A DNA stretch of 64,000 nucleotides. It comes from Geodermatophilus bullaregiensis (GTDB lineage: Bacteria > Actinomycetota > Actinomycetes > Mycobacteriales > Geodermatophilaceae). Position 1 is the stretch's first letter, and every line of letters begins with the position of its first letter. The translations under genes were made by a program, and so were the position numbers. This document shows, one piece after another, positions 10,447 through 61,210 of this stretch. The stretch spans positions 5,084,001 to 5,148,000 of the forward strand of contig NZ_JAFBCJ010000001.1 of assembly GCF_016907675.1 (NCBI RefSeq), read 5' to 3'. Below the pieces are notes generated by a model. That model ran no database searches, was not told where the DNA came from, and worked only from the letters and a program-made list of their open reading frames with translations.

Positions 10447-10478
10447 ACCCTCCCGGCCGGGCGTCACCGCGGCGTCAC
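10447..10478 (-). promoter_or_regulatory. SARP-type 11-bp direct repeat and -10 for the Dyp pair
   Basis: On the minus strand GTGAC begins at 10478 and again at 10467, exactly 11 bp apart, each followed by G. Ten bases after the second repeat the hexamer GAGGGT (10452-10447) fits xANNNT. The start codon of the 154-residue gene lies 37 bp further on. Confidence 0.6.
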
Positions 10479-10563
10479 GGCGGGCCGTCCCCGGCTCCGG
10501 TGTATCAGCGGCCCCCGGCACCCCTCTGCTCGTCGACGTCGGCACTCACGATCGGGGACGCCC

Positions 10564-11321
10564 ATGGACCAGCTCCTGCGTGCCGCTCCGGACAGCGGAC
10601 GGCGCGTCACCCTGCTCGACGGCTTCAGCGTCCTGGACGGCCGGATCGCGGACCGGCCGGTCGACGAGGAGCTGCCCCGGGCGGCGCAGCGCGTGGTGGC
10701 CCACCTGTGCCTGGGGCCGGCCGCCCGGCGCGCACGGCGGTGTCGGGCTCGCTGTGGCCCGACGTCCCCGAGGACAGGGCGCAGGCCAACCTGCGGTCCG
10801 CGCTGTGGCGGCTGCGCAGGTCCGCCCCGGGGCTGGTGGAGGTGTCGGGCGGCACCCTGCGGCTCGCGGTCGGCGTGCGGACCGACGTGCGGGAGCTGCG
10901 CACCTGGGTCGAGCGCGCCTGCGACCCCCGGGCCGGCGGCGACCGGGTGACGCTGCCGCACCCGGCGCTGCTGGGCGACCTGCTCCCCGGCTGGTACGAC
11001 GACTGGGTCCTGCTGGAGCGGGACCGGCTCGCCCAGCTGCGGCTGCGCGCGCTGGAGACCGTGGCCGGCCGCCTCGCCGCCGCCGGCCGGCACGGGGAGG
11101 CGCTGCAGGCCGCGTACCTGGCGATCCGGTCCGAGCCGCTGCGGGAGAGCGCCCACCGCACCGTCGTGCGCGTGCACCTCGCCGAGGGCAACCTCGCCGA
11201 GGCGCTCCGCGCCCACGACGTCTTCCGGGACCTGTTGCGCGACGAGCTCGGCGTGCCGCCGACGGAGCAGATGACCCAGCTGGTCCGAGGCGCCGCCCGG
11301 CTGCGGCGGGCGGCCTCCTGA
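10564..11321 (+). pseudogene. SARP-like regulator with BTAD domain, frameshifted (paralogue 2)
   Basis: The ATG at 10564 opens a frame giving VTLLDGFSVLDG and PRAAQRVVAHLCLGPAA, aligned with the other two SARP paralogues. Near 10723-10730 (run ccgcccggcg) homology jumps to the -1 frame, which continues TAVSGSLWPDVPE and runs to the stop at 11321. Compared with the paralogues, one base is missing at the jump. Both halves keep full family conservation, so the break is recent, a sequencing error, or less likely programmed frameshifting. If intact it would encode about 252 residues with winged-helix and BTAD domains. Confidence 0.8.
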
Positions 11322-11325
11322 CGGT

Positions 11326-11345
11326 GGGACGACGGCCGTCGTCCC
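11326..11345 (+). terminator. Palindromic terminator-like hairpin after SARP paralogue 2
   Basis: A perfect 20-base palindrome (10 bp per arm) begins 5 bases after the stop codon. It lies between two same-strand SARP genes and probably separates their transcripts. Confidence 0.55.
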
Positions 11346-11472
11346 GGTCCGGGCGCGGTCAGGGTCCAACGTCCATTGACGTCCACCCGGCGTGTCGGAA
11401 CGATTCGTCCTCACCACCACACCACCTGCCAGGACCCACCGACCGCCCGGACGAGGGCTCGAGAGGGGCCTC

Positions 11473-12255
11473 ATGAACGCACGCGTCTCCCTGCTCGACG
11501 GCTTCCGGGTCTCCGTGGACGACGCCCGCGCGGAGACGACGGTGGGCGGCCTGCCGCACGGTGTCCAGCGGCTGATCGCGCACCTGGGCCTGAGCGGCCG
11601 CCCGGCCCGCGGGGCGGTCGCCGGCCAGCTGTGGCCGGAGGTCCCCGAGTCGCACGCCCACGGCAGCCTGCGCTCCGCCCTGTGGCGCGTGCAGAAGGCG
11701 GTGCCGGGGCTGGTGGACGTGTCCGGGGGCGCGGTGGCGCTGGCGCGGGGGGTGCGCGTCGACGTCCGCGAACTCGTCGACTGGGCGCGCGCGGTCCTCG
11801 ACCCGGGGACCCGGGTCGAGCGCATCGCCACGCCCGCGGCGGCGCTGGCCGGTGAGCTGCTCCCGGGCTGGTACGACGACTGGGTCCTGCTCGAGCGGGA
11901 GCGGTTGCGCCAGCTGCGCATGCACGCGCTCGAGGTGCTGGCCGACCGGCTGGTGCTCGCCGGCCGCTACGGCGAGGCGGTGCAGGCCGCCTACGAGGCC
12001 GCCCGGGACGAGCCGCTGCGCGAGAGCGCGCACCGGGCGATCGTCCGGGTGCACCTCGCCGAGGGCAACCTCGCCGAGGCGATGCGCGCCTACACCACCT
12101 TCCGGGACGCGCTGGCCCGCGAGCTCGGCGTCCCGCCGACCCGCCAGATGGAGGACCTGGTGTCCCGGTGGCAGGTGCGCGTCGTCGTCGGCGGCCCGGG
12201 CGTCCCGGGGCCGCGACCGGGGGCCCGCACGACCGCCGGGGCGCCGGGCGCGTGA
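11473..12255 (+). CDS. SARP-like transcriptional regulator with BTAD domain (paralogue 3)
   Basis: 260 residues from an ATG with a GAGAGGGG site; the longer open frame from 11392 has no site and is not conserved. Same layout as the gene at 7607: winged helix (VSLLDGFRVSV, AVAGQLWPEVPE, SLRSALWRVQKAV) then BTAD (RERLRQLRMHALEVLADRLV, LRESAHRAIVRVHLAEGN). The last ~30 residues are a glycine/proline-rich tail. It lies upstream of the DUF2235 gene and its GTGAC-repeat promoter and is an obvious candidate activator. Confidence 0.87.
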   Translation: MNARVSLLDGFRVSVDDARAETTVGGLPHGVQRLIAHLGLSGRPARGAVAGQLWPEVPESHAHGSLRSALWRVQKAVPGLVDVSGGAVALARGVRVDVRELVDWARAVLDPGTRVERIATPAAALAGELLPGWYDDWVLLERERLRQLRMHALEVLADRLVLAGRYGEAVQAAYEAARDEPLRESAHRAIVRVHLAEGNLAEAMRAYTTFRDALARELGVPPTRQMEDLVSRWQVRVVVGGPGVPGPRPGARTTAGAPGA

Positions 12256-12277
12256 CCCGGCCCTGCGGCGGGCGGCG

Positions 12278-12310
12278 GTGACGGCGCCGTGACGCGGCGG
12301 CTCCTAGTGT
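12278..12310 (+). promoter_or_regulatory. SARP-type 11-bp direct repeat and -10 for the DUF2235 gene
   Basis: GTGAC at 12278 and 12289, each followed by G, are 11 bp apart. Eleven bases later TAGTGT (12305-12310) is a good -10. The gene's GTG start is 45 bp downstream. SARP activators bind such helical-turn-spaced repeats just upstream of the -10 and replace a -35. Confidence 0.7.
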
Positions 12311-12355
12311 CCGCGACCTGCCCCTCGGGGGACGCGACCAGCGGAGGAGAGGCCC

Positions 12356-13483
12356 GTGCCCAAGCGTCTGGTGCTGTGCTGCGACGGCACCTGGAACACC
12401 GCCGACCAGGAGCGTGACGGCCGGCCCTGCCCCACGAACGTCACCAAGGTCGCCCTCGCGGTCGACGACCGGGGGGAGGACGGCGTCGAGCAGCGGGTCT
12501 ACTACCAGCGGGGGGTCGGGACCAAGCCGGGCGAGCGGCTCCGGGGCGGGGCCTTCGGCGTGGGCCTCTCGCGCAACGTGCAGGACGCCTACCGCTTCGT
12601 CGTGGAGCACTACGACCCCGGCGACGAGCTGTTCTTCCTCGGCTTCAGCCGCGGGGCCTACACCGCCCGCAGCACGGTCGGGCTGATCCGCAACTGCGGC
12701 GTCCTGCGGCGCGAGCACGCCGGCCGGCTGAAGGAGGCCCACACCCTGTACCGGTCCCGGGCGGTGCGCCCGCGTGACCTCGAGTCGCAGCTGTTCCGGC
12801 GGTCCTACAGCCACGAACCGCGGATCCGCTTCCTCGGCGTGTGGGACACCGTGGGCTCCCTCGGCATCCCGTCGGTCGGACTGGGGCTGTCGCGGATCGC
12901 CAACCGCCGGCTGGAGTTCCACGACACCCGGCTGAGCAGCACGGTCGACGCCGCCTACCAGGCGCTGGCCGTCGACGAGCGGCGCCGGCCCTTCGCCCCG
13001 ACCCTCTGGGACCGCCGGTCGGTCGCCGGGCGCGCGCAGGTGGAGCAGGTCTGGTTCACCGGCGACCACTGCGACGTCGGCGGGGGGCACCGGGAGTCGG
13101 AGCTGGCCGACATCGCGCTGCTGTGGATGGTCGACCGCGCCCGCTCGTGCGGCCTGGGGTTCCGCGACGACGCCTTCCGCCGGTCCGGGGACGGCGGCCC
13201 CGCGGCCTACGACGGCCGGACCTTCCCGGTGGACCCCGATCCCCTGGGCCGCCTGCACGACTCGCGGAGGTGGGCCTTCCGCCTGCTGCGGCCCCACTCG
13301 CGGGCCATCGGCCAGGAGGACCCGTCCTCGGAGTCGGTCGCGGCCAGCGCGGTCCGGCGGCACGAGCTGCTGGGTGAGGAGTACGCGCCCCGCGGCCTGC
13401 TCGCCTACCTGGCCGGGAGCCCCCGGGTCACCGACGTGCCGGGGAGCGGGACCCGCCAGGAGGAGCCCGCGCTCACCCGCTGA
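12356..13483 (+). CDS. DUF2235 alpha/beta hydrolase (Tle1-like catalytic domain)
   Basis: 375 residues from a GTG with a GGAGGAGAGG site. LVLCCDGTWN at the N-terminus and LGFSRGAYTAR (Ser98 in the GxSxG elbow) are diagnostic of DUF2235, the catalytic domain of type VI secretion phospholipase effectors of the Tle1 group and of many stand-alone proteins. LGVWDTVGSLG and WFTGDHCDVGGG add further family blocks. There is no signal peptide and no secretion-system gene nearby. It has a SARP-type promoter and is grouped with the nearby proteases by regulation. Lipid substrate is family-level inference. Confidence 0.88.
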   Translation: MPKRLVLCCDGTWNTADQERDGRPCPTNVTKVALAVDDRGEDGVEQRVYYQRGVGTKPGERLRGGAFGVGLSRNVQDAYRFVVEHYDPGDELFFLGFSRGAYTARSTVGLIRNCGVLRREHAGRLKEAHTLYRSRAVRPRDLESQLFRRSYSHEPRIRFLGVWDTVGSLGIPSVGLGLSRIANRRLEFHDTRLSSTVDAAYQALAVDERRRPFAPTLWDRRSVAGRAQVEQVWFTGDHCDVGGGHRESELADIALLWMVDRARSCGLGFRDDAFRRSGDGGPAAYDGRTFPVDPDPLGRLHDSRRWAFRLLRPHSRAIGQEDPSSESVAASAVRRHELLGEEYAPRGLLAYLAGSPRVTDVPGSGTRQEEPALTR

Positions 13484-13698: not shown

Positions 13699-13711
13699 GG
13701 CCGCCGGTGGG

Positions 13712-13754
13712 GTGACGGCGCGTTGACGGGCCGGTGACGCGCGATCCCCACGCT
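13712..13754 (+). promoter_or_regulatory. SARP-type triple 11-bp repeat and -10 for the subtilisin
   Basis: GTGAC at 13712, TTGAC at 13723 and GTGAC at 13734, all followed by G, are exactly 11 bp apart. Ten bases after the last repeat CACGCT (13749-13754) fits xANNNT. The start codon is at 13800. Confidence 0.65.
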
Positions 13755-13799: not shown

Positions 13800-15137
13800 A
13801 TGACCAGTCCCGGATCCCCGTCCGGTCCCACCCTGTCGACCCCGGTCGACGACCTGCTCGCGGCCGCGCTGGACAGCGGCGGCGACAGCCTCGAGACGGG
13901 CCGCTTCATCGCGACCTTCCGGGAGGACGCCGTCGACGCGGGGATCCAGTCCCTCAGCTCGAGCGGCATGCGGGTCGCCGACGCCCGCGACTTCGACCGG
14001 CAGGCCGTGTCCCTGGGGGACGTCGGTGACGCCGAGGTCCTCGTCTTCCCGGAGATCGGCGCGGCCGTGCTCAGCGGCCCCGCCGCGACGGAGCGCGGCA
14101 TGACCGCCGAGACGGCCGTCGCCTCCGACAGCCCCGTCGAGGCGATCGAGCCCGAGTACTTCGTCTTCGCCGAGCAGCAGACCCTCGAGTCCCTCCGGAC
14201 CCACCTCACCGACGGCGACACCGACGGCGTCTCGGAGTACCTGCGCGGCTTCGTGCAGGCGGCCGAGGTGATCGCCCGCGACCTCGGCAACGGCCGTCGG
14301 CACCAGGTGGAGGTGGGCGAGGAGGAGACCCTCGTCCTCGGCGCCACGTGGGGCCTGGTGGCCTGCCGGGTCCCGCAGAGCACGCGCAGCGGGGCCGGCG
14401 TCAAGGTGGCGGTGCTCGACACCGGACTCGACCTCGGGCACCCGGACTTCACCGGGCGGCACGTCGTGCACCAGACCTTCGTCGGCCAGCCCGTGCAGGA
14501 CCTGCACAGCCACGGCACCCACTGCATCGGCACGGCCTGCGGCCCCAAGGCGCCGGCCGGCAGCACCCCGCGGTACGGGATCGGCCACCGGACCTCGGTC
14601 TTCGCGGGCAAGGTCCTGTCCAACACCGGGTCGGGGTCCACGGCCGGCGTGCTGGCGGGGATGAACTGGGCGATCGCCAACCGCTGCGAGGTCATCTCGA
14701 TGTCCCTCGGGTCGCAGGCGCCGGTCCAGGCCGCCTACACGGCGGCGGGGCGGGCGGCGCTGAACAACGGGTCGCTGATCGTCGCCGCCGCGGGGAACGC
14801 CTCGGCGGCGACCGGGGCGCCGGCGAACTCGCCGACGATCATGTCGGTCGCCTCCCTCGACCGGACGCTGGCACCCTCCGCCTTCTCCAACTTCGGCAAG
14901 GTGGAGATCGCCGCTCCCGGGCGTGACGTCCTGTCCTCGGTGCCGCGGCCGACCCGGTACGGCACCAAGAGCGGGACCAGCATGGCCACCCCGCACGTCG
15001 CCGGCTGCGCGGCGCTCTGGGCGCAGCCCTCGCCGTCCCTGCGCGGGGAGAGCCTGTGGCGGAGGCTGGTGGCCACGGCCCGGCACCTGCCGCACCCGGC
15101 GGCGCGGGTCGGGGCGGGCCTGGTCCAGGCCCCGTGA
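13800..15137 (+). CDS. S8 family subtilisin-like serine protease
   Basis: 445 residues. The catalytic triad is seen as VAVLDTGLD (Asp207), HSHGTHCIG (His238) and SGTSMATPHVAG (Ser394), with the oxyanion Asn in AAAGNAS. Residues ~35-120 look like an I9-type propeptide (FIATFREDAV, then AIEPEYFVFA before the catalytic domain). The first residues MTSPGSPSGP form no signal peptide, so the enzyme appears to be made without Sec export. It has a triple SARP-type repeat promoter and is followed 82 bp later by a small I9-like protein gene that may act as its inhibitor. Confidence 0.93.
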   Translation: MTSPGSPSGPTLSTPVDDLLAAALDSGGDSLETGRFIATFREDAVDAGIQSLSSSGMRVADARDFDRQAVSLGDVGDAEVLVFPEIGAAVLSGPAATERGMTAETAVASDSPVEAIEPEYFVFAEQQTLESLRTHLTDGDTDGVSEYLRGFVQAAEVIARDLGNGRRHQVEVGEEETLVLGATWGLVACRVPQSTRSGAGVKVAVLDTGLDLGHPDFTGRHVVHQTFVGQPVQDLHSHGTHCIGTACGPKAPAGSTPRYGIGHRTSVFAGKVLSNTGSGSTAGVLAGMNWAIANRCEVISMSLGSQAPVQAAYTAAGRAALNNGSLIVAAAGNASAATGAPANSPTIMSVASLDRTLAPSAFSNFGKVEIAAPGRDVLSSVPRPTRYGTKSGTSMATPHVAGCAALWAQPSPSLRGESLWRRLVATARHLPHPAARVGAGLVQAP

Positions 15138-28668: not shown

Positions 28669-29664
28669 TCAGCGCAGGCTGACCTCCGCGACGACCTGGC
28701 CGTGGTCGGAGACGACGCGACCGCGCCTCTCGTCACCGAGCTGGCTGTCGAAGAGGTGGTCGTTGAAGTACCGCAGGGTGCTCACCTCGCCGATGCGGTC
28801 CGGGTTGCGGTCGTGGAACTCCTGGCTGACGAGGACGTGGTCGAGGGTCTCGTAGTGCCCGTTGAAGACGTGCGTGTAGCTGATGTCGCGCCCGACCCGC
28901 CGGGCGTTCATCTCGTACGTCGAGTAGAGGAGCCGGTCCCAGTAGGCCCTCCGGTCGGCGGCGGCCCTCGGCCAGGACCGCGAGGGCGCGTCGCCCATGA
29001 CGATGTCCGTGGAGACCGCGCGGGCGGCGTCGTTGAGGTCGCCGAGCACGAACGCCGGCCGGGCGTTCCCGACGACCTCGTCGAGGACGAGGAAGCGCAG
29101 GGCCGCCGCCTCGGCGGCGCGGCGGACGAGCGCCCGCGCCTTGCCCAGGGCCTCCTCGCGGGGGTCGTGCTCCGGCGCCTGCGGGTCCCGGATGGGCCGC
29201 TTGGACTTCAGGTGGGCGACGAACACGGTCGCCGGCGTGTCCAGCGCCGGGTCGAGGACCACGCGGGCACGCAGGACCGGGCGGCTGAACGTCCCGACGG
29301 GGAGACCGACGCCGTCGACGACCGCGTCCAGCCCGTCGGGGAAGTCCACGACGGTCGAGACCGGCTCGGCGAGGGGCAGCCGGGTGGCCAGGCCCAGCCG
29401 GGGGCCGCTGACCCCGTCGGCGCCCGGAGCCACCACCGTGGCGCCGTCGAAGCGGCCCGACCGGCCGCAGACGTCGCGCAGCGCCTCCTCGTGGAAGACC
29501 TCCTGGAAGCCGACCAGGTCCGCGGCCATGCGGCGCAGCTGCCCGGCGGTCCAGGCGGCCTTCTCCTCGTACTCGGCCACGGAGTACGGGGCCTCGTCGG
29601 GGTAGTAGCGCTCGCCGGGCCGGGCGAGGTTGAGCACGTTGAAGGTGCCGATCCGGACGTTCAT
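28669..29664 (-). CDS. Endonuclease/exonuclease/phosphatase-fold protein
   Basis: 331 residues from ATG 29664, which has GGAGG upstream; the open frame continues to 29733 without a site. IGTFNVLNLA, FQEVFHEEA, LGDLNDAAR and SDHGQVV are the metal- and phosphate-binding motifs of the DNase I-like fold in the expected order. The family cleaves nucleic acids or phosphodiesters; which one is not clear. There is no signal peptide, although many homologues are secreted. A triple GTGAC-repeat promoter lies just upstream, placing it with the proteases. It is convergent with the selenoprotein gene, 6 bp apart. Confidence 0.85.
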   Translation of the reverse strand: MNVRIGTFNVLNLARPGERYYPDEAPYSVAEYEEKAAWTAGQLRRMAADLVGFQEVFHEEALRDVCGRSGRFDGATVVAPGADGVSGPRLGLATRLPLAEPVSTVVDFPDGLDAVVDGVGLPVGTFSRPVLRARVVLDPALDTPATVFVAHLKSKRPIRDPQAPEHDPREEALGKARALVRRAAEAAALRFLVLDEVVGNARPAFVLGDLNDAARAVSTDIVMGDAPSRSWPRAAADRRAYWDRLLYSTYEMNARRVGRDISYTHVFNGHYETLDHVLVSQEFHDRNPDRIGEVSTLRYFNDHLFDSQLGDERRGRVVSDHGQVVAEVSLR

Positions 29665-29712: not shown

Positions 29713-29755
29713 AGGGTCCGGGTCGCCCGTCACGGCGTCGTCACGGGTCCGTCAC
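29713..29755 (-). promoter_or_regulatory. SARP-type triple 11-bp repeat and -10 for the nuclease-fold gene
   Basis: On the minus strand GTGAC begins at 29755, 29744 and 29733, exactly 11 bp apart and each followed by G. GACCCT (29718-29713) follows after 10 bases and fits xANNNT. The start codon is 48 bp beyond. Confidence 0.68.
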
Positions 29756-29964: not shown

Positions 29965-30008
29965 GTGACGCGGTCGTGACGCCGGCGTGACGTCGTCCCC
30001 GCGATCCT
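29965..30008 (+). promoter_or_regulatory. SARP-type triple 11-bp repeat and -10 for the M4 protease
   Basis: GTGAC at 29965, 29976 and 29987, each followed by G, are exactly 11 bp apart. GATCCT (30003-30008) follows after 11 bases and fits xANNNT. The protease ATG is at 30108. Confidence 0.7.
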
Positions 30009-30107: not shown

Positions 30108-31169
30108 ATGTCCGTCCCCAGCAGCCACGTGCGGTGCTCGTTCGTGCCCCCCGCCGTGATCGAGCACCTCGCGCGGTCGAGCAGCGTGGACACCCCTGAC
30201 CCGGGCGCGGCGCAGCGCACCGCCGTGCTGACCCAGCAGCTGCGCGACCTGCGCCAGAGCGCCTCCCCGGACCTCCCGTCGGCGCGGACCACGGTCGTCT
30301 CGCCGCGGCCGACCAAGGGCGACCGCGCGGTCTACGACGACGAGAACACCGCGAACTTCGACGTGCAGCTGGTGCGGGGCGAGGGGGACCCGGCCGTCGA
30401 GGCCCGCAACGTCAACCAGGCGTACGACTACGCGGGGGCGGCGCGGGACTACTTCCGCACCGAGCACGGCCGCGACTCCATCGACCACAACGGGATGACC
30501 GTCACCGTCAACGTGAACTTCGACGTGGACTTCCTCAACGCCTTCTGGGACGGCGTGCGGCTGGTCCTGGGCAACGGTGACGGGGAGGTCTTCGTCGACT
30601 TCGCCGCCTCGCCCGACGTCATGGGGCACGAGCTGTCCCACGGAGTCGTGCAGTTCACGGCCAACCTGCAGTACAAGGGGCAGTCCGGCGCGCTGAACGA
30701 GTCCTTCTCCGACGTGTTCGGCAGTCTCATCGAGCAGCGGGTCCGCGGTGAGGACTTCGACTCGGCGAACTGGCTGATCGGCGACGAGATCATGGCCGAG
30801 GGGCTCTACGGCGAGGCCCTGCGCTCGATGGCGCACCCCGGCAGCGCCTACGACAACGCGCTGCTCGGCAAGGACCCGCAGCCGGACCACATGAGCGGGT
30901 ACTACGACGGGCCCAAGGACAACTACGGCGTCCACATCAACAGCGGCATCGTCAACCGCGCCTTCTACCTCACCGCGTCGGAGCTGGGCACCGACAGCGC
31001 CGGCCGGATCTGGTACGCCGGCCTGCAGAACCTGTGGCCGACCGCCACCTTCGCCGACGCGGCCCAGGTCCTCAGCGCGCAGGCGCGCATCCTCGCGCGG
31101 GACCGCAAGGTCGACCGGCAGGCGGCGCAGGCGGTCCGCGGCGCCTTCCGCACCGTCGGCATCCTGTAG
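30108..31169 (+). CDS. M4-family (protealysin-like) metalloprotease
   Basis: 353 residues from an ATG with GCAGGAGG upstream. HELSH (His174, Glu175, His178) with the third ligand Glu198 in ALNESFSDVFG is the thermolysin-family zinc site, and INSGIVNRAFY follows as in M4 enzymes. The N-terminus has CSFVPPAVIEHLA, the short propeptide motif of protealysin-like enzymes, and no signal peptide. Such proteases are intracellular or released non-classically. The convergent gene 10 bp downstream encodes an emfourin-type inhibitor, and a triple SARP-type repeat lies upstream. Confidence 0.93.
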   Translation: MSVPSSHVRCSFVPPAVIEHLARSSSVDTPDPGAAQRTAVLTQQLRDLRQSASPDLPSARTTVVSPRPTKGDRAVYDDENTANFDVQLVRGEGDPAVEARNVNQAYDYAGAARDYFRTEHGRDSIDHNGMTVTVNVNFDVDFLNAFWDGVRLVLGNGDGEVFVDFAASPDVMGHELSHGVVQFTANLQYKGQSGALNESFSDVFGSLIEQRVRGEDFDSANWLIGDEIMAEGLYGEALRSMAHPGSAYDNALLGKDPQPDHMSGYYDGPKDNYGVHINSGIVNRAFYLTASELGTDSAGRIWYAGLQNLWPTATFADAAQVLSAQARILARDRKVDRQAAQAVRGAFRTVGIL

Positions 31170-31179: not shown

Positions 31180-31482
31180 CTACGTCCGCTGCAGCACGAA
31201 GCGGATCAGCGGGCGCAGCTGCTCCGGCACGTCGGGGTCGCGGGCGTGCAGGTGGACCGACCTCCCGCCGATGGAGACCACGACGTCGTACTCGAAGGCG
31301 TCGGGCACCGACCGGGCCGGGGCAGGCGCGCGCCCGAGGGCCTCGAGGTCGAGTCCGCCGACCAGGTCCCGGAGCCGGCCGGCCTCCTCGGCCGGCAGCG
31401 ACCCGGTGTCCGCGGACCGGTGCGTGACCAGCCCGCCGAGACCGCCGGTGCGCTCGACGTCGACCTGCACCCGTTCCTCCAC
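31180..31482 (-). CDS. Emfourin-type inhibitor of M4 metalloprotease
   Basis: 100 residues from GTG 31482 with GAGGAGG upstream; a longer open frame runs back to 32322 but is a shadow. The pattern VQVDVERTGGLGGL, LPAEEAGRLRDLVGGLDLEAL, DAFEYDVVVSIGGR and PLIRFVLQ matches emfourins, small proteins that bind and inhibit protealysin-like M4 enzymes and are encoded beside them. Here it is tail-to-tail with its presumed target. The inhibitory role is family knowledge and the pairing is inferred. Confidence 0.8.
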   Translation of the reverse strand: MEERVQVDVERTGGLGGLVTHRSADTGSLPAEEAGRLRDLVGGLDLEALGRAPAPARSVPDAFEYDVVVSIGGRSVHLHARDPDVPEQLRPLIRFVLQRT

Positions 31483-32290: not shown

Positions 32291-32322
32291 TTGACGTCGT
32301 GGTGACGCCCCGTCCGCACCAT
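32291..32322 (+). promoter_or_regulatory. SARP-type 11-bp repeat and -10-like hexamer upstream of the SDR remnant
   Basis: TTGAC at 32291 and GTGAC at 32302, each followed by G, are 11 bp apart. CACCAT (32317-32322) follows after 10 bases. The downstream gene is truncated, so this may be an orphan site left after a deletion. Confidence 0.5.
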
Positions 32323-32372: not shown

Positions 32373-32831
32373 CGGGGGAGCGGCGCGGTGCTCACCGTCT
32401 GCTCGGTGTCCGGCGTCGTGCCGATGCCGCGGATGGCGACGTACGCGGCCTCGAAGGCCGCGCTGCTGTCGTTCACCGAGGCCCTGCACGCCGAGTGCCG
32501 CCCGCACGGGGTCGCGGTCACCGCGCTGTGCCCGGGGACCGTCCCGACCGAGTTCATGGACCTCGCCGGCCTCGGCGCGGCGATCGACCAGGTGCCCGCG
32601 TGGGCACTGGACGACGCGCGCCGCGTCGCGGAGCGCGGGCTGGACGCGCTGGCGCGCAATCGGCGCGTCGTCGTCCCGTCGGCCCCCTACCGGGCCTCTG
32701 CGCTCCCGCTGCGGCTGCTGCCGCACGGGGTGCTCTTCGGCCTGCTGCGGCGCGGCTCGCCGTTCCCGGACCGCTGGCAGGAGGCACCCGGCGCCGCCCG
32801 CGAGCCGGCACCGCTGTCGCCGACGACCTGA
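32373..32831 (+). pseudogene. SDR-family oxidoreductase, 5'-truncated remnant
   Basis: From about 32373 the frame reads RGSGAVLTVCSVSG and then ATYAASKAALLSF, the Ser and YxxxK catalytic residues of a short-chain dehydrogenase, followed by a normal C-terminal half (PHGVAVTALCPGTVPTEF). The N-terminal Rossmann half with TGxxxGIG is missing and upstream sequence is unrelated, so the remaining ~150 residues cannot bind NAD(P). A GTG at 32388 could start a shortened product, but it has no clear function. Confidence 0.75.
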
Positions 32832-49550: not shown

Positions 49551-49620
49551 CCCTGGCAGGCACCGGCAGGCATTCCGTCAGTCCGCTTCGACAGGAGAAC
49601 CGAACTAGGAGGTGAGGTCG

Positions 49621-50085
49621 ATGACGAGCACCGCACCGGAGCGTTCCACGGCGCTGAGCGAGCTCGGGTTGGACGGGCAGAACCAGGCGACGATCGGTCG
49701 GCTGCTGGCCACCGGGAACATCGGACACGCCGAGGAGGGCGCCGACGGCCGGATGCGCGCCCGGATCCGGATCGTGCCCGACCAGCTGATCTGGGACCCC
49801 TCGGTCCTGGTCCTGCCCCACGGGGGGCACCTGGACATCGAGTTCGTCAACGACGACCAGAACACGCACTGCGCGCTCGTGCCGAGCAACGGTGACAGCA
49901 AGTGGATGTGGCTGCCCAACTACTCGCGCGGGACCATGTCCGTCACCCTCGACGGCCCTGGTTACTACTGGTTCAGCTCCAACATCGGCAACGACGAGGG
50001 CCGCGGCCTGATCGGGGCGATCGTCGTGAGGGGCGACGTCCCGGAGTCCGCGCGCCTCGACCGCCCGCAGCAGCCCCGACCGTAG
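49621..50085 (+). CDS. PQQ-associated cupredoxin-like protein
   Basis: 154 residues from an ATG with AGGAGG 8 bases upstream. LPHGGHLDIEFVNDDQNTHC and GPGYYWFSSNIGNDEGRG fit a cupredoxin-like beta-barrel, and it resembles the small proteins that accompany actinobacterial PQQ dehydrogenases (the MSMEG_3727-type family). It lacks a signal peptide. It lies 14 bp before the PQQ dehydrogenase and probably serves it as an electron-transfer or stability partner; this is inferred. Confidence 0.75.
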   Translation: MTSTAPERSTALSELGLDGQNQATIGRLLATGNIGHAEEGADGRMRARIRIVPDQLIWDPSVLVLPHGGHLDIEFVNDDQNTHCALVPSNGDSKWMWLPNYSRGTMSVTLDGPGYYWFSSNIGNDEGRGLIGAIVVRGDVPESARLDRPQQPRP

Positions 50086-50099
50086 ACAGGACTGGATCG

Positions 50100-51833
50100 A
50101 TGACAGGCATCCAGGACAGGACCGACATCGAGTACGGAGAGGCCCCGCCGGCAGTCGACTTCGGGTCTCTCACCACCGCCCCCGGGACCGCGCCCCCGGT
50201 GGTCCAGGACGTCACGTACGAACGCATCCTCGACGCCCGCTCCGAGCCGCAGAACTGGCTCACCTACTACGGGGCCTACGACGGACAGCGGTACAGCCCG
50301 CTCGACCAGATCAACACCGAGAACGTCGTCCGCATCACCCCGGCCTGGGTCTTCAGCTTCTCGCCCCACGGGCTGCACGCGGGCCAGTCGACGTACGCCT
50401 TCGAGACCTGCCCGATCGTCGTCGACGGCGTCATGTACGTCTCCGGGTGGGACGGCTGGGTCTGGGCGCTCGACGCCAAGAACGGTCAGCTGCTGTGGCA
50501 GTACAAGCACGCGATCCCGTTCGACGTCTCGCTGTGCTGCGGAAACGTCAACCGTGGGGTCGCGGTGGCCAACGGCAAGGTCTTCGTCTGCACCCTCAAC
50601 GCCCACGTGCTCGCGCTCGACGCCACCGACGGCTCGTGCATCTGGGACGTAACGAGCGGGGACGTGCGCGCCGGGGAGAGCCTCACGGTCGCCCCGCTGG
50701 TGGTGAAGGACCGGGTCGTCGTCGGCAGCTCCGGCGGGGAGTTCGGGGTCCGCGGCCACCTCGACGCCTACGACATGGAGACCGGGGAGCGGGTCTGGCG
50801 GTGCTACACGATCCCGAAGCCTGGTGAGCCGGGTTCCGAGACTTGGCCCGCCGAGGGCGAGGCCTGGGCGCGGGGTGGTGGCAACGGCTGGATCACCGGC
50901 ACCTTCGACCCGGAGACCAACCTCCTGTACTGGGGGACCGGCAACCCGGCGCCCGACTTCGACGGCGAGGTCCGTCCGGGCGACAACCTCTACACCGACA
51001 GCGTGATCGCGGTGGACGCCGACACCGGCGAGATCCGCTGGCACTACCAGTGCACCCCGCACGACCTGTGGGACTACGACAGCAACATGGAGTGCATCCT
51101 GTTCGAGCAGGACGGGCGCAAGCTCCTGGCCCACTTCGACAAGAACGGGTACTGCTTCGTCCTGGACCGCACCAACGGTGAACGGGTGCGGATCTTCCCG
51201 TTCGTCGACCGGATCACCTGGGGGGAGATCACCCCCGACGGTCAGGTGACGCCGCGGATCTACCCCGAGCAGGAGGGGGAGGAGGTCCACTTCCACCCCG
51301 GGCCGGCCGGGGCCAAGGAGTGGACCCACGCGGCGTACAGCCCGAGGACGGGACTGTTCTACGTCCCGGTGCAGGACACCGGCGCGAAGGTCGCCCGCCG
51401 GCGCCGGGAGTTCAAGGAGAGCATCCCCTACTGGGGCGCGGCGGTCACCGTGGACGCCGAGGACATGGCGGGGTCGGTGTCGGCCTTCGACCCGTCCACC
51501 GGCGAGGAGGTCTGGCGCTGGCGCAACGACCTGCCGATGTGTGCCTCGGTGCTGGCCACGGCGGGCGACCTCGTGTTCGCCGGCACGCCGTCCGGGACGT
51601 TCGTGGCCCTCGACGCCCGCAGCGGCGAGTTCCTGTGGCAGTTCAACTGCGGCAGCGGCCACCACAGCAGCCCGACCACCTACAGCGTCGACGGCAAGCA
51701 GTACATCGCCGTCCCGGTCGGCTGGGGCGCCTGGGTCGAGGGGTTCCTGCCCGGGATGATGGGCGGCCCGCACGGACAGGCGATGTTCGTCTTCTCGCTG
51801 CCCGAGGGCCAGGACTCGTCCGGAGGGAGGTGA
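50100..51833 (+). CDS. PQQ-dependent methanol/ethanol-type dehydrogenase, lanthanide signature
   Basis: 577 residues. An eight-bladed propeller with W-motifs such as VWALDAKNGQLLW and SAFDPSTGEEVWRW. SLCCGN contains the vicinal disulfide Cys146-Cys147 that contacts PQQ. HDLWDYDSN gives the catalytic Asp325 and a second Asp327 two residues on; that extra Asp marks lanthanide-dependent XoxF/PedH-type enzymes rather than calcium MxaF types. No haem domain is present. Unusually, there is no signal peptide (MTGIQDRTDIEYGE), though such enzymes normally act outside the membrane. pqqA starts 5 bp after it. Confidence 0.9.
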   Translation: MTGIQDRTDIEYGEAPPAVDFGSLTTAPGTAPPVVQDVTYERILDARSEPQNWLTYYGAYDGQRYSPLDQINTENVVRITPAWVFSFSPHGLHAGQSTYAFETCPIVVDGVMYVSGWDGWVWALDAKNGQLLWQYKHAIPFDVSLCCGNVNRGVAVANGKVFVCTLNAHVLALDATDGSCIWDVTSGDVRAGESLTVAPLVVKDRVVVGSSGGEFGVRGHLDAYDMETGERVWRCYTIPKPGEPGSETWPAEGEAWARGGGNGWITGTFDPETNLLYWGTGNPAPDFDGEVRPGDNLYTDSVIAVDADTGEIRWHYQCTPHDLWDYDSNMECILFEQDGRKLLAHFDKNGYCFVLDRTNGERVRIFPFVDRITWGEITPDGQVTPRIYPEQEGEEVHFHPGPAGAKEWTHAAYSPRTGLFYVPVQDTGAKVARRRREFKESIPYWGAAVTVDAEDMAGSVSAFDPSTGEEVWRWRNDLPMCASVLATAGDLVFAGTPSGTFVALDARSGEFLWQFNCGSGHHSSPTTYSVDGKQYIAVPVGWGAWVEGFLPGMMGGPHGQAMFVFSLPEGQDSSGGR

Positions 51834-51838
51834 CGGCG

Positions 51839-51961
51839 ATGGACCAGGAGCAGTACGTCTGCCCGCTCGGCGCAGACGAGTGGGAGACCCCCTCCTTCGA
51901 GGAGATCCGGGTGTCCGCTGAGGCGACCGCCTACATGGGCGTCCAGGAGGACTGGGACTAG
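51839..51961 (+). CDS. pqqA: Coenzyme PQQ precursor peptide PqqA
   Basis: 40 residues. SAEATAYMG holds the Glu28-x3-Tyr32 pair that PqqE cross-links to make PQQ. The GGAGG site overlaps the stop of the dehydrogenase gene. It is longer at the N-terminus than proteobacterial PqqA (YVCPLGADEWETPSFEEIRV leader). It is followed 108 bp later by pqqB. Confidence 0.88.
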   Translation: MDQEQYVCPLGADEWETPSFEEIRVSAEATAYMGVQEDWD

Positions 51962-52069
51962 ACGGACACGTCCGGGACCGGGCGGGGAGGCGTCGGGCGA
52001 CGCGGTCCGGCGCCTCCCCGTCGACGCGGCGCCGCTGCGCGGCGCACGGCCGGGAGGACACCGATCGAC

Positions 52070-52975
52070 GTGTGGGTGCGGGTGCTGGGCTCGGCAGCGG
52101 GAGGCGGGTTCCCGCAGTGGAACTGCGCCTGCCCGGCGTGCCGCGCGGTGCGCGACGGGTCCCGGCCCGCCCGCCCGCGGACCCAGTCGTCGGTCGCGGT
52201 GAGCCCCGACGGCCGGCGGTGGTTGCTGCTCAACGCCTCACCCGACGTCCAGGCCCAGATGGCGTCCTTCCCCGCCCTGCACCCCTCCAGCGGTCCCGAC
52301 GGTGCCCGGGTGGTCCCGCTGCAGGCCGTCCTGCTCACCGACGCCGAGCTGGACCACACGCTCGGGCTCCTGCTGCTCCGAGAGGGAGGTGGCCTCGTCC
52401 TGCACGCCACCGAGGCGACCCGCGACACGCTGTGCGACGGGACGTCGCTGCTGCGGACCCTCGAGGCCTACTGCCCGGTCGAGTGGCGGCCGGTCGTGCC
52501 GGGGGCGGACGTGCCGCTGGCCGACGGGTTGTCCTACCGCGCCTTCGACGTCCCGACGACGAAGCGGGCGCGGTTCGGCCCGGGCGGGCGGAGCGGGCGC
52601 GTCGTCGGCTACCGCCTGACCGACGAGCGCAGCGGCCGGGTGCTGGTCCACCTGCCGGTGGTGCAGGAGCTGACCGCGGCGGTGCTGGGCGAACTTGACG
52701 GCTGCTCGTGCCTGCTCGTCGACGGGACCTGCTGGTCCGACGACGAGCTGATCCGGCTCGGCCTGGCAGGCAGGACGGCACGCGAGATGGGGCACCTGCC
52801 GATCAGCGGGCCCGGGGGCAGCCTCGAGCAGCTCTCCCCGCTGCCCATCCGGCGCACGGTCTACGTCCACGTCAACAACACCAACCCGATCCTGCTCGAG
52901 GACGCGCCCGAGCGGCGCACCGTGGAGCAGCACGGCATGGAGGTCGCCGTGGACGGGCTGGAACTACAGCTGTGA
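52070..52975 (+). CDS. pqqB: PQQ biosynthesis protein PqqB
   Basis: 301 residues from a GTG; the GGGAGG site is somewhat distant. VRVLGSAAGGGFPQWNCACPAC is the characteristic start, here with its CxCxxC zinc pair, followed by the metallo-beta-lactamase fold (LLTDAELDHTLGLLLLRE) and the end YVHVNNTNPILLEDAPER. It hydroxylates the tyrosine-derived part of the cross-linked intermediate. First of four tightly packed pqq genes. Confidence 0.95.
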   Translation: MWVRVLGSAAGGGFPQWNCACPACRAVRDGSRPARPRTQSSVAVSPDGRRWLLLNASPDVQAQMASFPALHPSSGPDGARVVPLQAVLLTDAELDHTLGLLLLREGGGLVLHATEATRDTLCDGTSLLRTLEAYCPVEWRPVVPGADVPLADGLSYRAFDVPTTKRARFGPGGRSGRVVGYRLTDERSGRVLVHLPVVQELTAAVLGELDGCSCLLVDGTCWSDDELIRLGLAGRTAREMGHLPISGPGGSLEQLSPLPIRRTVYVHVNNTNPILLEDAPERRTVEQHGMEVAVDGLELQL

Positions 52976-52983
52976 GGCCCACG

Positions 52984-53679
52984 GTGACCCTGACGGACAC
53001 GGCGACCGACGGCTTCGTGGCAGCGCTGCGCGCGCAGTCGCGGCGCTACCACGACCGGCACCCCTTCCACGAGCGGATGAACGCGGGGCGCCTGGGCCCC
53101 GGGGAGATCCGGATGTGGGTGGCCAACCGCTTCTACTACCAGGAGAACATCCCCCGCAAGGACGCCGCCATCCTCGCCAACTGCCCCGACCGCGCGGTCC
53201 GCCGCCGCTGGCTGCGGCGCATCGTCGACCACGACGGCACGGCCGAGGGCGAGGGCGGCATCGAGGCGTGGCTGCGTCTGGGCGACGCGGTCGGGCTCAG
53301 CCGGGAGGAGATGGAGGACGAGCGGCACGTCGTCCCCGGGGTGCGGTTCGCCGTCGACGCCTACGTCGGCTTCGCCCGCACCCGGCCCTGGGTCGAGGCG
53401 GTGGCCTCCTCCCTGACCGAGCTGTTCGCGCCGGACCTGATGGCCGAACGGCTGGCCGCCTTCGAACGCCACTACACCTGGATCGACCGTCAGGGTCTGG
53501 CCTACTTCCGGGGCCGCCTCACCCAGGCGCCCCGCGACTCCGAGCACGCCCTGGAGGTGGTGACGGAGCACTGCCGGACGCCCGAGCAGCAAGCAGCCGC
53601 CGCGGCGGCACTGTCCTTCAAGTGCGACGTCCTGTGGAGCGTGCTCGATGCCATCGACCGGGCCTGTGCAGATCGGTAG
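52984..53679 (+). CDS. pqqC: Pyrroloquinoline-quinone synthase PqqC
   Basis: 231 residues from GTG 52984; a GTG at 52972 overlapping the pqqB stop is an alternative. RYHDRHPFHERMNAG, VANRFYYQENIPRKDA, RIVDHDGT and ERHYTWIDRQGLAYFRGRL are PqqC active-site helices. This cofactor-free oxidase performs the final ring closure and eight-electron oxidation to PQQ. Confidence 0.96.
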   Translation: MTLTDTATDGFVAALRAQSRRYHDRHPFHERMNAGRLGPGEIRMWVANRFYYQENIPRKDAAILANCPDRAVRRRWLRRIVDHDGTAEGEGGIEAWLRLGDAVGLSREEMEDERHVVPGVRFAVDAYVGFARTRPWVEAVASSLTELFAPDLMAERLAAFERHYTWIDRQGLAYFRGRLTQAPRDSEHALEVVTEHCRTPEQQAAAAAALSFKCDVLWSVLDAIDRACADR

Positions 53680-53959
53680 CGGGACCGACCGCCCCCGTCT
53701 GGCCCGCCACGTCCGGCTGACGTTCGACCCGGCACGCGGGCAGCACGTGCTGCTGACGCCCGAGGCGGTCACCGTCCTGAACGGCACGGGCGCGGCCGTC
53801 CTGGACCTGTGCGACGGGCGCCGGACGGTGGCCGGGATCGGGGCGGAGCTGCGCCGACGGTACGGCCGCGTGGTCGACGACGAGGTGCGGGCCTTCCTCG
53901 ACCGCCTCGCCGCCCGACGGTGCGTCGAGATCGACCACGCGGAGGTCGGCCGTGGCTGA
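53648..53959 (+). CDS. pqqD: PQQ biosynthesis peptide chaperone PqqD
   Basis: 103 residues from ATG 53648, overlapping the pqqC end by 32 bp; GTG 53666 is an alternative start. RLARHVRLTFDPARGQHVLL, VTVLNGTGAAVLDLCDGRRT and VRAFLDRLAARR are the RRE (PqqD) fold that presents PqqA to PqqE. Confidence 0.92.
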   Translation: MPSTGPVQIGSGTDRPRLARHVRLTFDPARGQHVLLTPEAVTVLNGTGAAVLDLCDGRRTVAGIGAELRRRYGRVVDDEVRAFLDRLAARRCVEIDHAEVGRG

Positions 53960-55064
53960 CGCAGGCGTGGACAGGCCGTTCGGGCTGCTGGCCGAGCTCA
54001 CCTACGGCTGTCCGCTGCAGTGCTCGTACTGCTCCAACCCGCTCGACCTCGCCGCGTACGCCGACGAGCTGACCACGGCGGAGTGGCAGCGGGTGCTGGC
54101 CGAGGCCCGGGAGCTGGGCGTGCTGCAGCTGCACCTCTCCGGCGGCGAGCCGCTCCTGCGCCGCGACCTCCCCGACATCGTGCACTGCGCCTCCGGGCTG
54201 GGCCTCTACACGAACCTCATCACCAGCGCGCTCGGCCTCTCCTCCCGCCGCGCGGAGCAGCTGCTCGCCGCGGGCCTCGACCACGTGCAGATCAGCGTCC
54301 AGGCCGACGAGCCGACCCTCTCCGACCGCCTCGCCGGGTCGCCGTCGTTCCAGCGCAAGGTGGCGGCCTCGCGGCTGGTGAAGGAGCTGGGGTGGCCCCT
54401 CACGCTCAACGTGGTCCTCCACCGGCACAACGTCGACCGGATCGCCGGCATCCTCGAGCTGGCCGAGGAGCTGGGGGCCGACCGGATCGAGCTGGCCAAC
54501 ACGCAGTACTACGGCTGGGGTCTGCTCAACCGCGACGGGCTCCTGCCGAGCAGGGCCCAGCTCGAGCGCGCCGAGGTCGTGGTGCGGGCGGCGCACGAAC
54601 GCCTGGAGGGACGGATGGAGGTCATCTACGTCCTCCCCGACCACTACGGGCGGTACCCCAAGCCCTGCATGGGCGGCTGGGGGCGGCGGCAGCTCACCGT
54701 GGTGCCCAACGGCGACGTCCTCCCGTGCCCGACCGCACAGACCCTCCCCCTTCCCCGGGCCAGCGTGCGGGAGCACTCCCTGGGCTGGATCTGGGAGCGG
54801 TCACCCCTCTTCCAGAGCTTCCGCGGAACGGCGTGGATGCCCGACCCCTGCCGCAGCTGCGAGCGCCGCGAGCTCGACTTCGGCGGCTGCCGCTGTCAGG
54901 CGTTCCAGCTCACCGGCGACGCCGCCCGCACGGATCCGGTCTGCCACCTGTCTCCCGACCACGGAGTCGTGGCCGACGCGGTGCGAGCCGCCAACGAGGC
55001 GCCGTGGCCGGGGGATGCGGTGCTGACCCCCCGGCCGCAGACCGTCACCCGGCGCAGCCGGTGA
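53952..55064 (+). CDS. pqqE: PqqA peptide cyclase PqqE (radical SAM)
   Basis: 370 residues, overlapping pqqD by 8 bp. CPLQCSYC is the radical SAM CxxxCxxC cluster motif; LHLSGGEPLLR binds SAM. The C-terminal SPASM region has Cys residues in KPCMGGW, LPCPTAQ, CRSCERR and CRCQ for auxiliary clusters. It forms the Glu-Tyr carbon bond in PqqA. Confidence 0.96.
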   Translation: MADAGVDRPFGLLAELTYGCPLQCSYCSNPLDLAAYADELTTAEWQRVLAEARELGVLQLHLSGGEPLLRRDLPDIVHCASGLGLYTNLITSALGLSSRRAEQLLAAGLDHVQISVQADEPTLSDRLAGSPSFQRKVAASRLVKELGWPLTLNVVLHRHNVDRIAGILELAEELGADRIELANTQYYGWGLLNRDGLLPSRAQLERAEVVVRAAHERLEGRMEVIYVLPDHYGRYPKPCMGGWGRRQLTVVPNGDVLPCPTAQTLPLPRASVREHSLGWIWERSPLFQSFRGTAWMPDPCRSCERRELDFGGCRCQAFQLTGDAARTDPVCHLSPDHGVVADAVRAANEAPWPGDAVLTPRPQTVTRRSR

Positions 55065-56178: not shown

Positions 56179-56189
56179 AGAAGGACCCC

Positions 56190-59340: not shown

Positions 59341-59586
59341 GCGGCCGTCGACGCCCTGTTGCTCGGCTCGCTGGTGTACCGGTCCGGCCTCGTAGCACGC
59401 GTCATCCCGCTGATGGGCCTGATCGGCGGCCCCCTGCTGCTGGCCTCCGTGGCCGGGGTCGTCCTCGGCACGCACGACCTGGACGCCGGGCTCCACGTGA
59501 TCGCGGCCGCCCCGATCTTCTCCTGGGAGCTGTCACCCGGCGTCTACCTGATGGTCAAGGGCTTCAGGTCCACGCCGATCACCGCC
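59341..59586 (+). pseudogene. DUF4386 membrane protein remnant
   Basis: The frame reads VDALLLGSLVYRSGLVARVI, LGTHDLDAGLHVIAAAPIF and SPGVYLMVKGFRSTPI, the C-terminal third of a DUF4386 protein (normally ~230 residues). The N-terminal part is absent and the sequence after GFRSTPI is unrelated, so only a fragment is left. Confidence 0.7.
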
Positions 59587-59621
59587 CGCGCCGTCCCGTC
59601 GACCCGGCCCGGACCGGGAGA

Positions 59622-59836
59622 TGACATCCGGTCGCCCGCTTCCTGCCGTTCTTCGCGGGGGACGAGCTGCTCGCCCACAGCAACGACGTCGACACCCCCG
59701 AGGCGATCGCCGTCGCCCTGACCCGGCCCGAGAGCGCACTCGTCTTCGGCGGGTACGCCGCGGTGGCCCTCGTCGTGGGAACCGTCCTGCTGTACCGGCG
59801 CGACGCGACCCGATGGGAGCACCGGCCCGAGGACGG
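59622..59836 (+). pseudogene. C-terminal remnant of an ABC-2-type permease
   Basis: The frame reads ARFLPFFAGDELLAHSNDVD and then a last membrane helix FGGYAAVALVVGTVLLYRRD ending in an RRDA-type tail, typical for ABC-2 permease C-termini. Everything before it is missing; a stop codon lies just upstream in frame. The frame remains open into the Lsr2 gene, which is probably accidental. Confidence 0.55.
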
Positions 59837-59966
59837 GGAGCCCCACGGTCGAGGACCGCGGGGTCCTCCTCGTGTTCGGCGGAGACTGGTCCCCCCGCCG
59901 GGCGACGTCCCGGTGATCAGGGCCGTTCCCTTGACTTCCCGATCACGGCTCTGGAGTCTCGGTCGT

Positions 59967-60305
59967 GTGGCTACCCGGACCGAGGTCGTGCTGATCGACG
60001 ACCTGGATGGCGAGACGCCGGCCAGCACGACCGTGGAGTTCGCTCTCGACGGCACCGAGTACGGGATCGACCTGAGCGACGAGAACGCCGCAGCGATGCG
60101 CGCGCAGCTCTCCCGCTACGTGCAGGCCGCCCGGGAGGTCTCCTCGAGCGCGGGTCGTCGTGCCGCCGAGCCGGCGAGACCCGCCTACTCGGGGTACGAC
60201 CCGGCCGCGGTGCGCGCCTGGGCTGCCGGACAGGGCATCACGGTCTCCCCGCGTGGCCGGATCAAGGCCGACGTCGTCGAGCAGTACCGAGCCGCCGGCA
60301 ACTGA
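59967..60305 (+). CDS. lsr2: Lsr2-family nucleoid-associated protein
   Basis: 112 residues from GTG 59967, GGAG upstream. VVLIDDLDGETPASTTVEFA and YGIDLSDENAAAMRAQLSRY form the N-terminal dimerisation domain; the C-terminal domain ends in YDPAAVRAWAAGQGITVSPR with the RGR AT-minor-groove motif. Lsr2 is the actinobacterial H-NS-like silencer of AT-rich and foreign DNA. It lies beside decayed genes and an insertion element. Confidence 0.93.
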   Translation: MATRTEVVLIDDLDGETPASTTVEFALDGTEYGIDLSDENAAAMRAQLSRYVQAAREVSSSAGRRAAEPARPAYSGYDPAAVRAWAAGQGITVSPRGRIKADVVEQYRAAGN

Positions 60306-60547
60306 CGCCGGCGCCTCGGCGAGGTCCGTGCCCCACGGGTCGGGGGTGGGGGCCGACGGAGCCGGGACCGGCCTCCCGGGCGGTCCTCCGACGAGCCTGA
60401 AGCGGACCTGGCCGTGACCTCGGCTCCGGTCGCGACCGTCGCGGTGACCGGGCTCGGGGCCGGCACGGACCCGTCAGCGACCGGTCACACGTCGAGTACC
60501 GCTCGGATCGTGGTCGGGTCCCGGGGAAGCGGGCATACGATGACGCC

Positions 60548-60967
60548 GTGGGTCCGTCGGTCCACGAGCGGCCTCTCCGGCGCCGGAGGGTCACCCTGCT
60601 GACCTCCATCGTCATGAGCGTGGGGCTGGCGACGGGTTGCGGGGCGGGAGTGATGGCGATGACCCAGTTCGAGCCACCCAGGATCACCGCGTCGGAGGAC
60701 CTGGCGATGCCGCCTCCGGGGCAGGTGCCGCCGGTCTGGGAGTCGCCGGCCGGTGATGCGCTGGACGAGCTGACCGTCCGGGTGGCCCGCGACCTGAGGG
60801 ACAAGGAGTGGGTGAGGGGCGTGTACCGCCGCCTGGACACCCCGACGAAGGACGCCATCGTGATCTGGGTCGACCACATCGGCAGGCGTGACGAGCTCCC
60901 GCGAGAGATCGCCGGCCACCGCGTGATCGTCGAGCCGCACGACCCCATCGAGATCCTGCCGGCCTAG
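60548..60967 (+). CDS. Putative lipoprotein with NAL1 N-domain-like fold (139 aa)
   Basis: GTG start 6 bases after TACGAT (60536-60541), a leaderless arrangement. RRRVTLLTSIVMSVGLATGC looks like a short signal with a weak lipobox (ATGC). The mature part, with LTVRVARDLRDKEWVRGVYR, AIVIWVDHIG and LPREIAGHRVIVEP, resembles the small alpha/beta domain found at the N-terminus of NAL1-type trypsin-like proteases. Such a protease gene is the next one downstream on the same strand, 273 bp away. A partner or inhibitor role is possible. Confidence 0.5.
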   Translation: MGPSVHERPLRRRRVTLLTSIVMSVGLATGCGAGVMAMTQFEPPRITASEDLAMPPPGQVPPVWESPAGDALDELTVRVARDLRDKEWVRGVYRRLDTPTKDAIVIWVDHIGRRDELPREIAGHRVIVEPHDPIEILPA

Positions 60968-61166
60968 CGGTCGCGTCCGACCGTGACGCGGTCCGACTCG
61001 GGGGCACAGGCCACGGCGGACGCGGCGAGTCGTCGCCGGGCGGCTGTCCTCCAGACGAGTGGTGCACTCGTGCACGTCGACCGCACCCCGTGACCCGACT
61101 CGTCGCCGAACCCGGGACGAGCCTCCGGTCGATGTGCTCAAGACACCGGAGTACGGCCCGCCGTAC

Positions 61167-61210
61167 GTGACGCTCCGGTGACGGGTCAGTGACAGCAGTC
61201 GGCCTACGGT
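61167..61210 (+). promoter_or_regulatory. SARP-type triple 11-bp repeat and -10 for the NAL1-like protease
   Basis: GTGAC at 61167, 61178 and 61189 is exactly 11-bp periodic. TACGGT (61205-61210) follows after 11 bases and is a good -10. The protease start is 30 bp downstream. It is about 48 kb from the SARP genes yet has the same geometry. Confidence 0.7.

Follow-up and report, generated by a model that had tools for sequence, protein, structure and literature searches.

We analyzed a stretch of 64,000 nucleotides from Geodermatophilus bullaregiensis (the window; positions 5,084,001–5,148,000 of a single contig of 5,200,084 bases, 1.2% of the genome), in which seven sites, A to G, carry direct GTGAC repeats at 11-bp spacing. 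An initial annotation had read these sites as promoters of a regulon activated by SARP-type regulators, with a hexamer of the form NANNNT lying 10–11 bases after the last repeat. We re-read all seven sites at their coordinates, strands and hexamers, and all matched. The repeat unit is nearly always followed by G, the sole exception being the last unit of site G (followed by A), and the hexamer was present at 10–11 bases in 5/5 sites with the exact GTGACG-N5-GTGACG pattern and in 7/7 when sites C and F, each containing a TTGAC unit, were counted. On the evidence below, the seven sites very probably act as promoters within a single regulon that spans the genome and is activated by the small SARP or SARPs encoded at 7.6–12.3 kb. 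The sites are as follows, the gap being the number of bases between the last repeat and the hexamer.

Site A, 10447–10478, minus strand: units at 10478 and 10467, gap 10, GAGGGT; putative promoter of a DyP pair, between the pair and SARP 2
Site B, 12278–12310, plus strand: units at 12278 and 12289, gap 11, TAGTGT
Site C, 13712–13754, plus strand: units at 13712, 13723 (TTGAC) and 13734, gap 10, CACGCT
Site D, 29713–29755, minus strand: units at 29755, 29744 and 29733, gap 10, GACCCT
Site E, 29965–30008, plus strand: units at 29965, 29976 and 29987, gap 11, GATCCT
Site F, 32291–32322, plus strand: units at 32291 (TTGAC) and 32302, gap 10, CACCAT; the gene downstream is a remnant
Site G, 61167–61210, plus strand: units at 61167, 61178 and 61189, gap 11, TACGGT

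Three SARP paralogues had been placed in this region, and two of them, SARP 1 and SARP 3, proved intact, whereas the frame of SARP 2 is broken.

SARP 1, 7607–8386, plus strand: small BTAD protein, frame intact, BTAD E = 7.3e-20, 65% identity with SARP 3
SARP 2, 10564–11321, plus strand: small SARP, frame broken near 10700, BTAD frame ending at 11321
SARP 3, 11473–12255, plus strand: small BTAD protein, frame intact, BTAD E = 6.5e-18

When read from the ATG at 10564, SARP 2 departs from the family sequence past VVAHLCL, and its BTAD domain (PF03704, over the cut-off) lies in the other frame. In addition to the three small SARPs, six large proteins with BTAD are encoded in the genome. A structural model of SARP 3 (pLDDT 86.9, pTM 0.80) had AfsR (8k60 and 8hvr) and EmbR (2fez) as its nearest structures, and a profile of the small SARPs, when compared with solved structures, matched AfsR at E = 6e-13. 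The fold, which matches AfsR and EmbR over the full length, thus predicts an N-terminal OmpR-type DNA-binding domain in SARP 3. In-frame TGA codons had been flagged in SARP matches; of the two seen in the loci, one lay beyond the gene end (L055) and the other in a second copy matching in two pieces (L054).

Repeat pattern and promoter anatomy

The exact pair GTGAC-N6-GTGAC occurs nine times in the window, compared with a mean of 0.31 and a maximum of 2 in 100 dinucleotide shuffles. The excess was weaker for pairs with one mismatch (18 versus 9.8 expected, a count reached by 2 of 100 shuffles). The ninth exact pair, at position 7040 and absent from the initial annotation, looks like a chance occurrence and was set aside because it has no hexamer at 10–11 bases. 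In the 5.2-Mb genome, GTGACG-N5-GTGACG was found 23 times, versus 0 for the reversed pattern, and GTGAC-N6-GTGAC 49 times, versus 6. Seven of the 23 pairs lie in the window, where they form five sites, and the other 16 lie outside it; the view of the window as a regulon is therefore retained with the amendment that the window holds part of a genome-wide set. At 11-bp spacing, the full pattern gave 197 matches in the genus (26 genomes), compared with 1 at 12-bp spacing. Sites that begin with TTGACG and carry the hexamer numbered 18 in the genus (0 in the reversed control), all of them in SARP-carrying genomes; in the genome analyzed here, only C and F are of this kind. An origin of the repeats in base composition has practically no chance, since, for all the G+C content of 75% and the modest one-mismatch excess in the window, the shuffle, reversed-pattern and 12-bp-spacing controls rejected chance and GC bias, and the sites moreover depend on the presence of SARP genes.

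We then assembled 154 sequence-distinct sites. Loci around SARP relatives, 77 in all, supplied 80 of them and three relatives another 54; the remainder come from the genome analyzed here, 5 being the window sites with the exact pattern and 15 further ones. The stretches that supplied the 54 covered 22/22 matches in G018, 22/22 in G024 and 21/26 in G003, and duplicate copies were dropped. The motif is not equally common inside genes, as only 1 of the 154 sites lies within a called gene; this site was excluded from the spacing count, leaving 153. The genome-wide search for motif and hexamer that had been proposed revealed a locked spacing: the hexamer NANNNT began at a distance of 10 bases from the last GTGAC in 75 sites and of 11 bases in 39, whereas each of the other gaps from 0 to 30 accounted for 0–9 sites (about 2.8 expected; the largest counts were at 21 (9), 13 (7) and 22 (5)). 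Most of the 154 sites (122) have two repeats, 31 have three and a single site has four; the median distance from site to chosen start codon was 88 bases. The published SARP layout (PMC10936776) has repeats 11 or 22 bp apart, the last one 8 bp from the –10 element. If the unit is taken as the heptamer GTGACGN, on which this agreement depends, the putative –10 element would lie 8–9 bases after the last repeat in 114/153 sites.

The arrangement is also conserved upstream of the DUF2235 gene that follows site B. Among nine full-length homologues in the genus, including the one analyzed here, eight keep repeats and hexamer upstream; the copy of G018 has neither repeats nor hexamer upstream, and the three remaining locus rows are fragments (two from G017, one from G010). 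The repeats begin 57–141 bases ahead of the first matched codon, and the letters of the spacer vary. Separately, at C279:25940–27859 of G017 a SARP fragment adjoins a DUF2235 gene matching in two pieces, and G017 has 0 full-pattern sites.

Co-occurrence of the sites with small SARP genes

With a profile of 29 sequences (E ≤ 1e-30), we searched 112 family genomes, some of them incomplete, for small SARPs and counted full-pattern sites in the same genomes. We found 349 sites in the 56 genomes with a small SARP, compared with 3 in the 56 others, and the reversed pattern gave 2 matches in all 112. Sites were present in 51/56 SARP genomes and 3/56 non-SARP genomes (Fisher test, P = 6e-22, with the fragmentary SARPs of G012 and G017 counted as absent; 51/58 versus 3/54, P = 2e-20, with both counted as present), although these P-values are optimistic because the genomes are related. 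The same contrast was observed within single genera, where genomes with and without a SARP carried sites in 18/19 versus 0/7 (g1), 9/9 versus 0/14 (g18), 12/12 versus 0/11 (g25) and 10/14 versus 0/2 (g19) cases. For the shorter pair GTGAC-N6-GTGAC, in 25 genomes of the genus, the counts per genome were 7–29 in 18 SARP genomes and 0–6 in the other 7. Near SARP relatives, the repeat pair was found 73 times inside the family (30/41 loci) and 17 times outside it, in Streptomyces, Micromonospora and others (14/36 loci), in each case versus 0 in the control. Because the sites co-occur with the small SARP in this manner, the assignment of the regulon to SARPs is strongly supported.

Response regulators of the OmpR type, namely MtrA, GlnR and PhoP, also use direct repeats spaced by 11 bp, and it could be proposed that one of these binds the sites, the SARPs being bystanders. 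The MtrA box GTAAC-N6-GTAAC and the GlnR box gTnAc-n6-GaAAc appear similar to GTGAC-N6-GTGAC. However, MtrA scored over the cut-off in 25/26 genomes of the genus, among them the seven that lack a usable small SARP, and these seven have 0 full-pattern sites. MtrA, to which this test applies, was accordingly rejected as the binder, and we consider a response regulator of this type very unlikely.

A regulator inherited together with the small SARP, such as a large AfsR-like SARP or an unnoticed adjoining gene, might instead be the true binder. Such a regulator has candidates in the six large BTAD proteins, and co-occurrence cannot separate genes that travel together. Three observations nevertheless make it improbable, leaving it a slim chance. 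First, G011, which was matched only at a large BTAD protein, has 0 full-pattern sites. Second, genes for SARPs of a second subfamily (6 copies in the genus) are themselves preceded by the site, 45–115 bases upstream at 4/4 loci examined. Third, the sites are also found beside SARP relatives outside the family, as described above. The position of the sites in front of the second-subfamily genes suggests that these SARPs may activate their own genes; in the window, no site was seen reading into SARP 1 or SARP 3.

Target genes and contractile injection systems

The window genes downstream of the sites are as follows.

DyP pair gene 1 (site A), 9945–10400, minus strand: 151 aa, without a Pfam family; its start lies 62 bases past the last repeat of site A
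DyP pair gene 2, 8616–9932, minus strand: DyP-type peroxidase domain; DyP_N (PF21105) at 28.4 bits, barely above the cut-off of 27.5
DUF2235/Tle1-like hydrolase (site B), 12356–13483, plus strand: PF09994, E = 1.4e-83
Subtilase S8 (site C), 13800–15137, plus strand: PF00082, E = 3.8e-40; start taken as ATG 13800
Endonuclease/exonuclease/phosphatase (EEP)-fold protein (site D), 28669–29664, minus strand: PF03372, E = 6.9e-08
M4 (thermolysin-type) peptidase (site E), 30108–31169, plus strand: PF02868, E = 6.8e-48
C-terminal part of an SDR protein (site F), 32388–32831, plus strand: PF00106, positions 133–187 of 195
Protein with trypsin-like motifs by eye (site G), 61430–62539, plus strand: start uncertain, 61241 and 61283 also possible

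The trypsin-like label of the initial annotation for the site G protein comes from motifs seen by eye; in this protein, no Pfam family exceeded the cut-off, and Nal1_C (E = 0.007) lay below it. The family of DyP pair gene 1 is also found downstream of a site in L078, L116, L119 and L184, and the EEP-fold family of site D in L160 and L168. Convergent with the M4 peptidase gene is an emfourin gene (31180–31470, minus strand; PF20242, E = 7.8e-20), by its name a member of an M4 peptidase inhibitor family. An IS481-type transposase gene (62562–63515, minus strand) adjoins the site G gene. Elsewhere in the window, positions 49612–55064 hold a probable pyrroloquinoline quinone (PQQ) biosynthesis region, which encodes a radical SAM/SPASM protein, a PQQ-associated protein of the MSMEG_3727 type and a protein of metallo-beta-lactamase fold that by eye looks like PqqB.

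A downstream open reading frame (ORF) was called for 127 of the 154 sites, and the encoded proteins fell into 86 sequence clusters. We scanned one representative per cluster against Pfam, with 58 random neighbouring ORFs as a control. Among the matches listed for the targets were the peptidase families S8 (5), M4, M6, M14, M28, M43, S41, C11, C14 and trypsin; CHAT (2), two endonuclease families, EEP, patatin, Tle1 and TIR (2); and animal haem peroxidase (2) and tyrosinase. Peptidases, phospholipases, nucleases and peroxidases of many unrelated kinds thus figure among the targets. Among those listed for the 58 control ORFs were S8, M28 and TIR, once each, and alpha/beta hydrolases. These tallies are lower bounds for both targets and controls, and therefore no enrichment is claimed. 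In the genome analyzed here, targets outside the window included a CHAT+SIR2 protein, a clostripain (C11), an M28 peptidase, a weak NACHT match, PNPOx and asparagine synthase, and nine of the others scanned had no Pfam family. Signal-like N-termini were less frequent in targets (6/109) than in control ORFs (25/143; P = 0.004 in a crude test). PADLOC, applied to 29 of the 86 target representatives, returned weak matches to subtilase, CHAT, IetS, TIR and ThsA models. A Micromonospora target (L135) carries polyketide cyclase and carrier domains, and polyketide genes are the classical SARP setting.

Two further observations concern genes near the sites. A family of proteins of 67–75 aa occurs downstream of a site in five Geodermatophilaceae loci (L079, L081, L085, L112 and L116), and its L079 member, the one scanned, has no Pfam family. 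In Streptomyces aureoverticillatus, a protein that appears caspase-like by eye is encoded at L132:12517–13578 (minus strand); its gene follows a small SARP and a site at a distance of about 1.8 kb.

We also examined contractile injection systems (CIS). The tail sheath gene (PF04984) had no match in the genome analyzed here (G000) and matched in 8/26 genomes of the genus, of which seven carry a small SARP. In six of these seven (G006, G008, G009, G010, G016 and G020), the stretches around the sheath gene hold hexamer-bearing sites, and in G010 a site lies 69 bases ahead of the sheath gene itself. The 14-kb sheath stretch of G004 has no site, and that of the SARP-less G019 has no site with a hexamer at 10–11 bases. 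Two Streptomyces loci, L124 and L125, each have a site near a SARP gene and 82 bases ahead of a sheath gene, and the neighbouring gene in L125 encodes a tail-tube protein. In L147, where no sheath ORF was called, a SARP gene has a site close to it, again with this hexamer.

These arrangements raise the possibility that the regulon is correctly identified and that its scattered targets are CIS cargo rather than stand-alone enzymes. The sites of the CIS operons in the six genomes and in the two Streptomyces loci are in favour, as are relatives of some target families (the DyP pair and the L034 family) in CIS loci; 18/127 targets have such a relative, a count that takes in one SARP and one target matched to itself within its own CIS locus (L080/L209). 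However, the sheath gene is found in 8/26 genomes of the genus, compared with 18/26 for full-pattern sites, and target families were not enriched in 12 CIS loci, where 8/59 targets and 14/138 control ORFs had relatives (P = 0.47; of the 14 control matches, a SARP accounts for at least 5 and the second gene of the DyP pair for at least 2). Because of this lack of enrichment and of a sheath gene in the present genome, we regard the cargo role as doubtful, though it keeps an appreciable minority of our confidence; as a general account of the targets it was not borne out.

A probable regulon of small SARPs and its relation to known systems

The SARP regulon proposed by the initial annotation is supported by the placement of the sites as promoters, the phase of the hexamer, the co-occurrence with SARP genes across 112 genomes and the AfsR/EmbR fold. 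Several observations weigh against it. The hexamer at 10–11 bases is missing from 40/154 sites, including 6 of the 15 other sites of the same genome (it is present in 9), and no downstream ORF was called at 27/154. Five SARP genomes (G021, G071, G073, G075 and G080) have no full-pattern site, and the SARP-less genomes G081, G096 and G126 have one each; the relatedness of the genomes and the CIS comparison, both noted above, count on the same side. At E ≤ 0.001, Pfam listed only BTAD in the SARPs, and Trans_reg_C was absent from the results. Finally, the description of the downstream genes as lytic enzymes fits the many hydrolases but not several other targets, including asparagine synthase, PNPOx-like, membrane and unknown proteins and, among the matches listed, alpha-amylase (2), a BCCT transporter and others.

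By analogy with AfsR, SARP molecules would occupy adjacent GTGACG units, one helical turn apart, two or three at a time; from there, immediately ahead of a weak –10 element (NANNNT), they would recruit RNA polymerase. Transcription would presumably start at these sites. The regulon would drive a large number of hydrolases and oxidases that stand alone, most of them lacking signal-like N-termini, and in relatives that bear a CIS it would also drive the CIS operons. The likeliest role, which we infer, is that of a co-ordinated arsenal for killing or dismantling the cell itself or its neighbours.

Compared with the SARP activators AfsR, ActII-ORF4 and RedD, the present system shares the BTAD domain and the AfsR/EmbR fold and, as published for SARPs (PMC10936776, PMC10972967), direct repeats at 11-bp spacing that would end 8–9 bases (after the heptamer) before a weak –10 element. 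It differs in its unit, GTGACG, the AfsR unit being given as CGTT(T/C)ATCGNN (PMC10972967), and in its targets, which are scattered and consist mainly of stand-alone hydrolases, with CIS operons in relatives, rather than one antibiotic cluster. BTAD is listed as a shell domain of extracellular CIS loci by Geller et al. 2021 (PMC8213781), and a BTAD gene adjoining a CIS is likewise seen here; what distinguishes the present case from that account, as far as its accessible part goes, is a binding site with unlinked targets and a genome with no sheath match. The association between BTAD and these loci is thus already known, but no account of the GTGACG site, of its scattered targets or of a family-wide SARP dependence was recognised in the open-licence literature, as judged by titles, term counts and the beginnings of abstracts.

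SARPs are known as switches of antibiotic clusters, whereas the clade described here seems to govern a distributed hydrolase regulon and, in relatives, injection machines. We tentatively raise the further possibility, which we hold to be somewhat unlikely, that the small-SARP clade serves actinobacteria at large as the master activator of antagonism or of programmed cell death, its promoter code switching on CIS, the SARP itself and fast-changing, scattered, leaderless toxin-like enzymes. If this is true, scanning for the promoter code would list unlinked effectors that are invisible to analyses of gene neighbourhood. The code is clear enough for members to be listed by pattern search, which makes the proposed arsenal role directly testable and offers a handle on the regulation, and on possible unlinked effectors, of actinobacterial injection systems.

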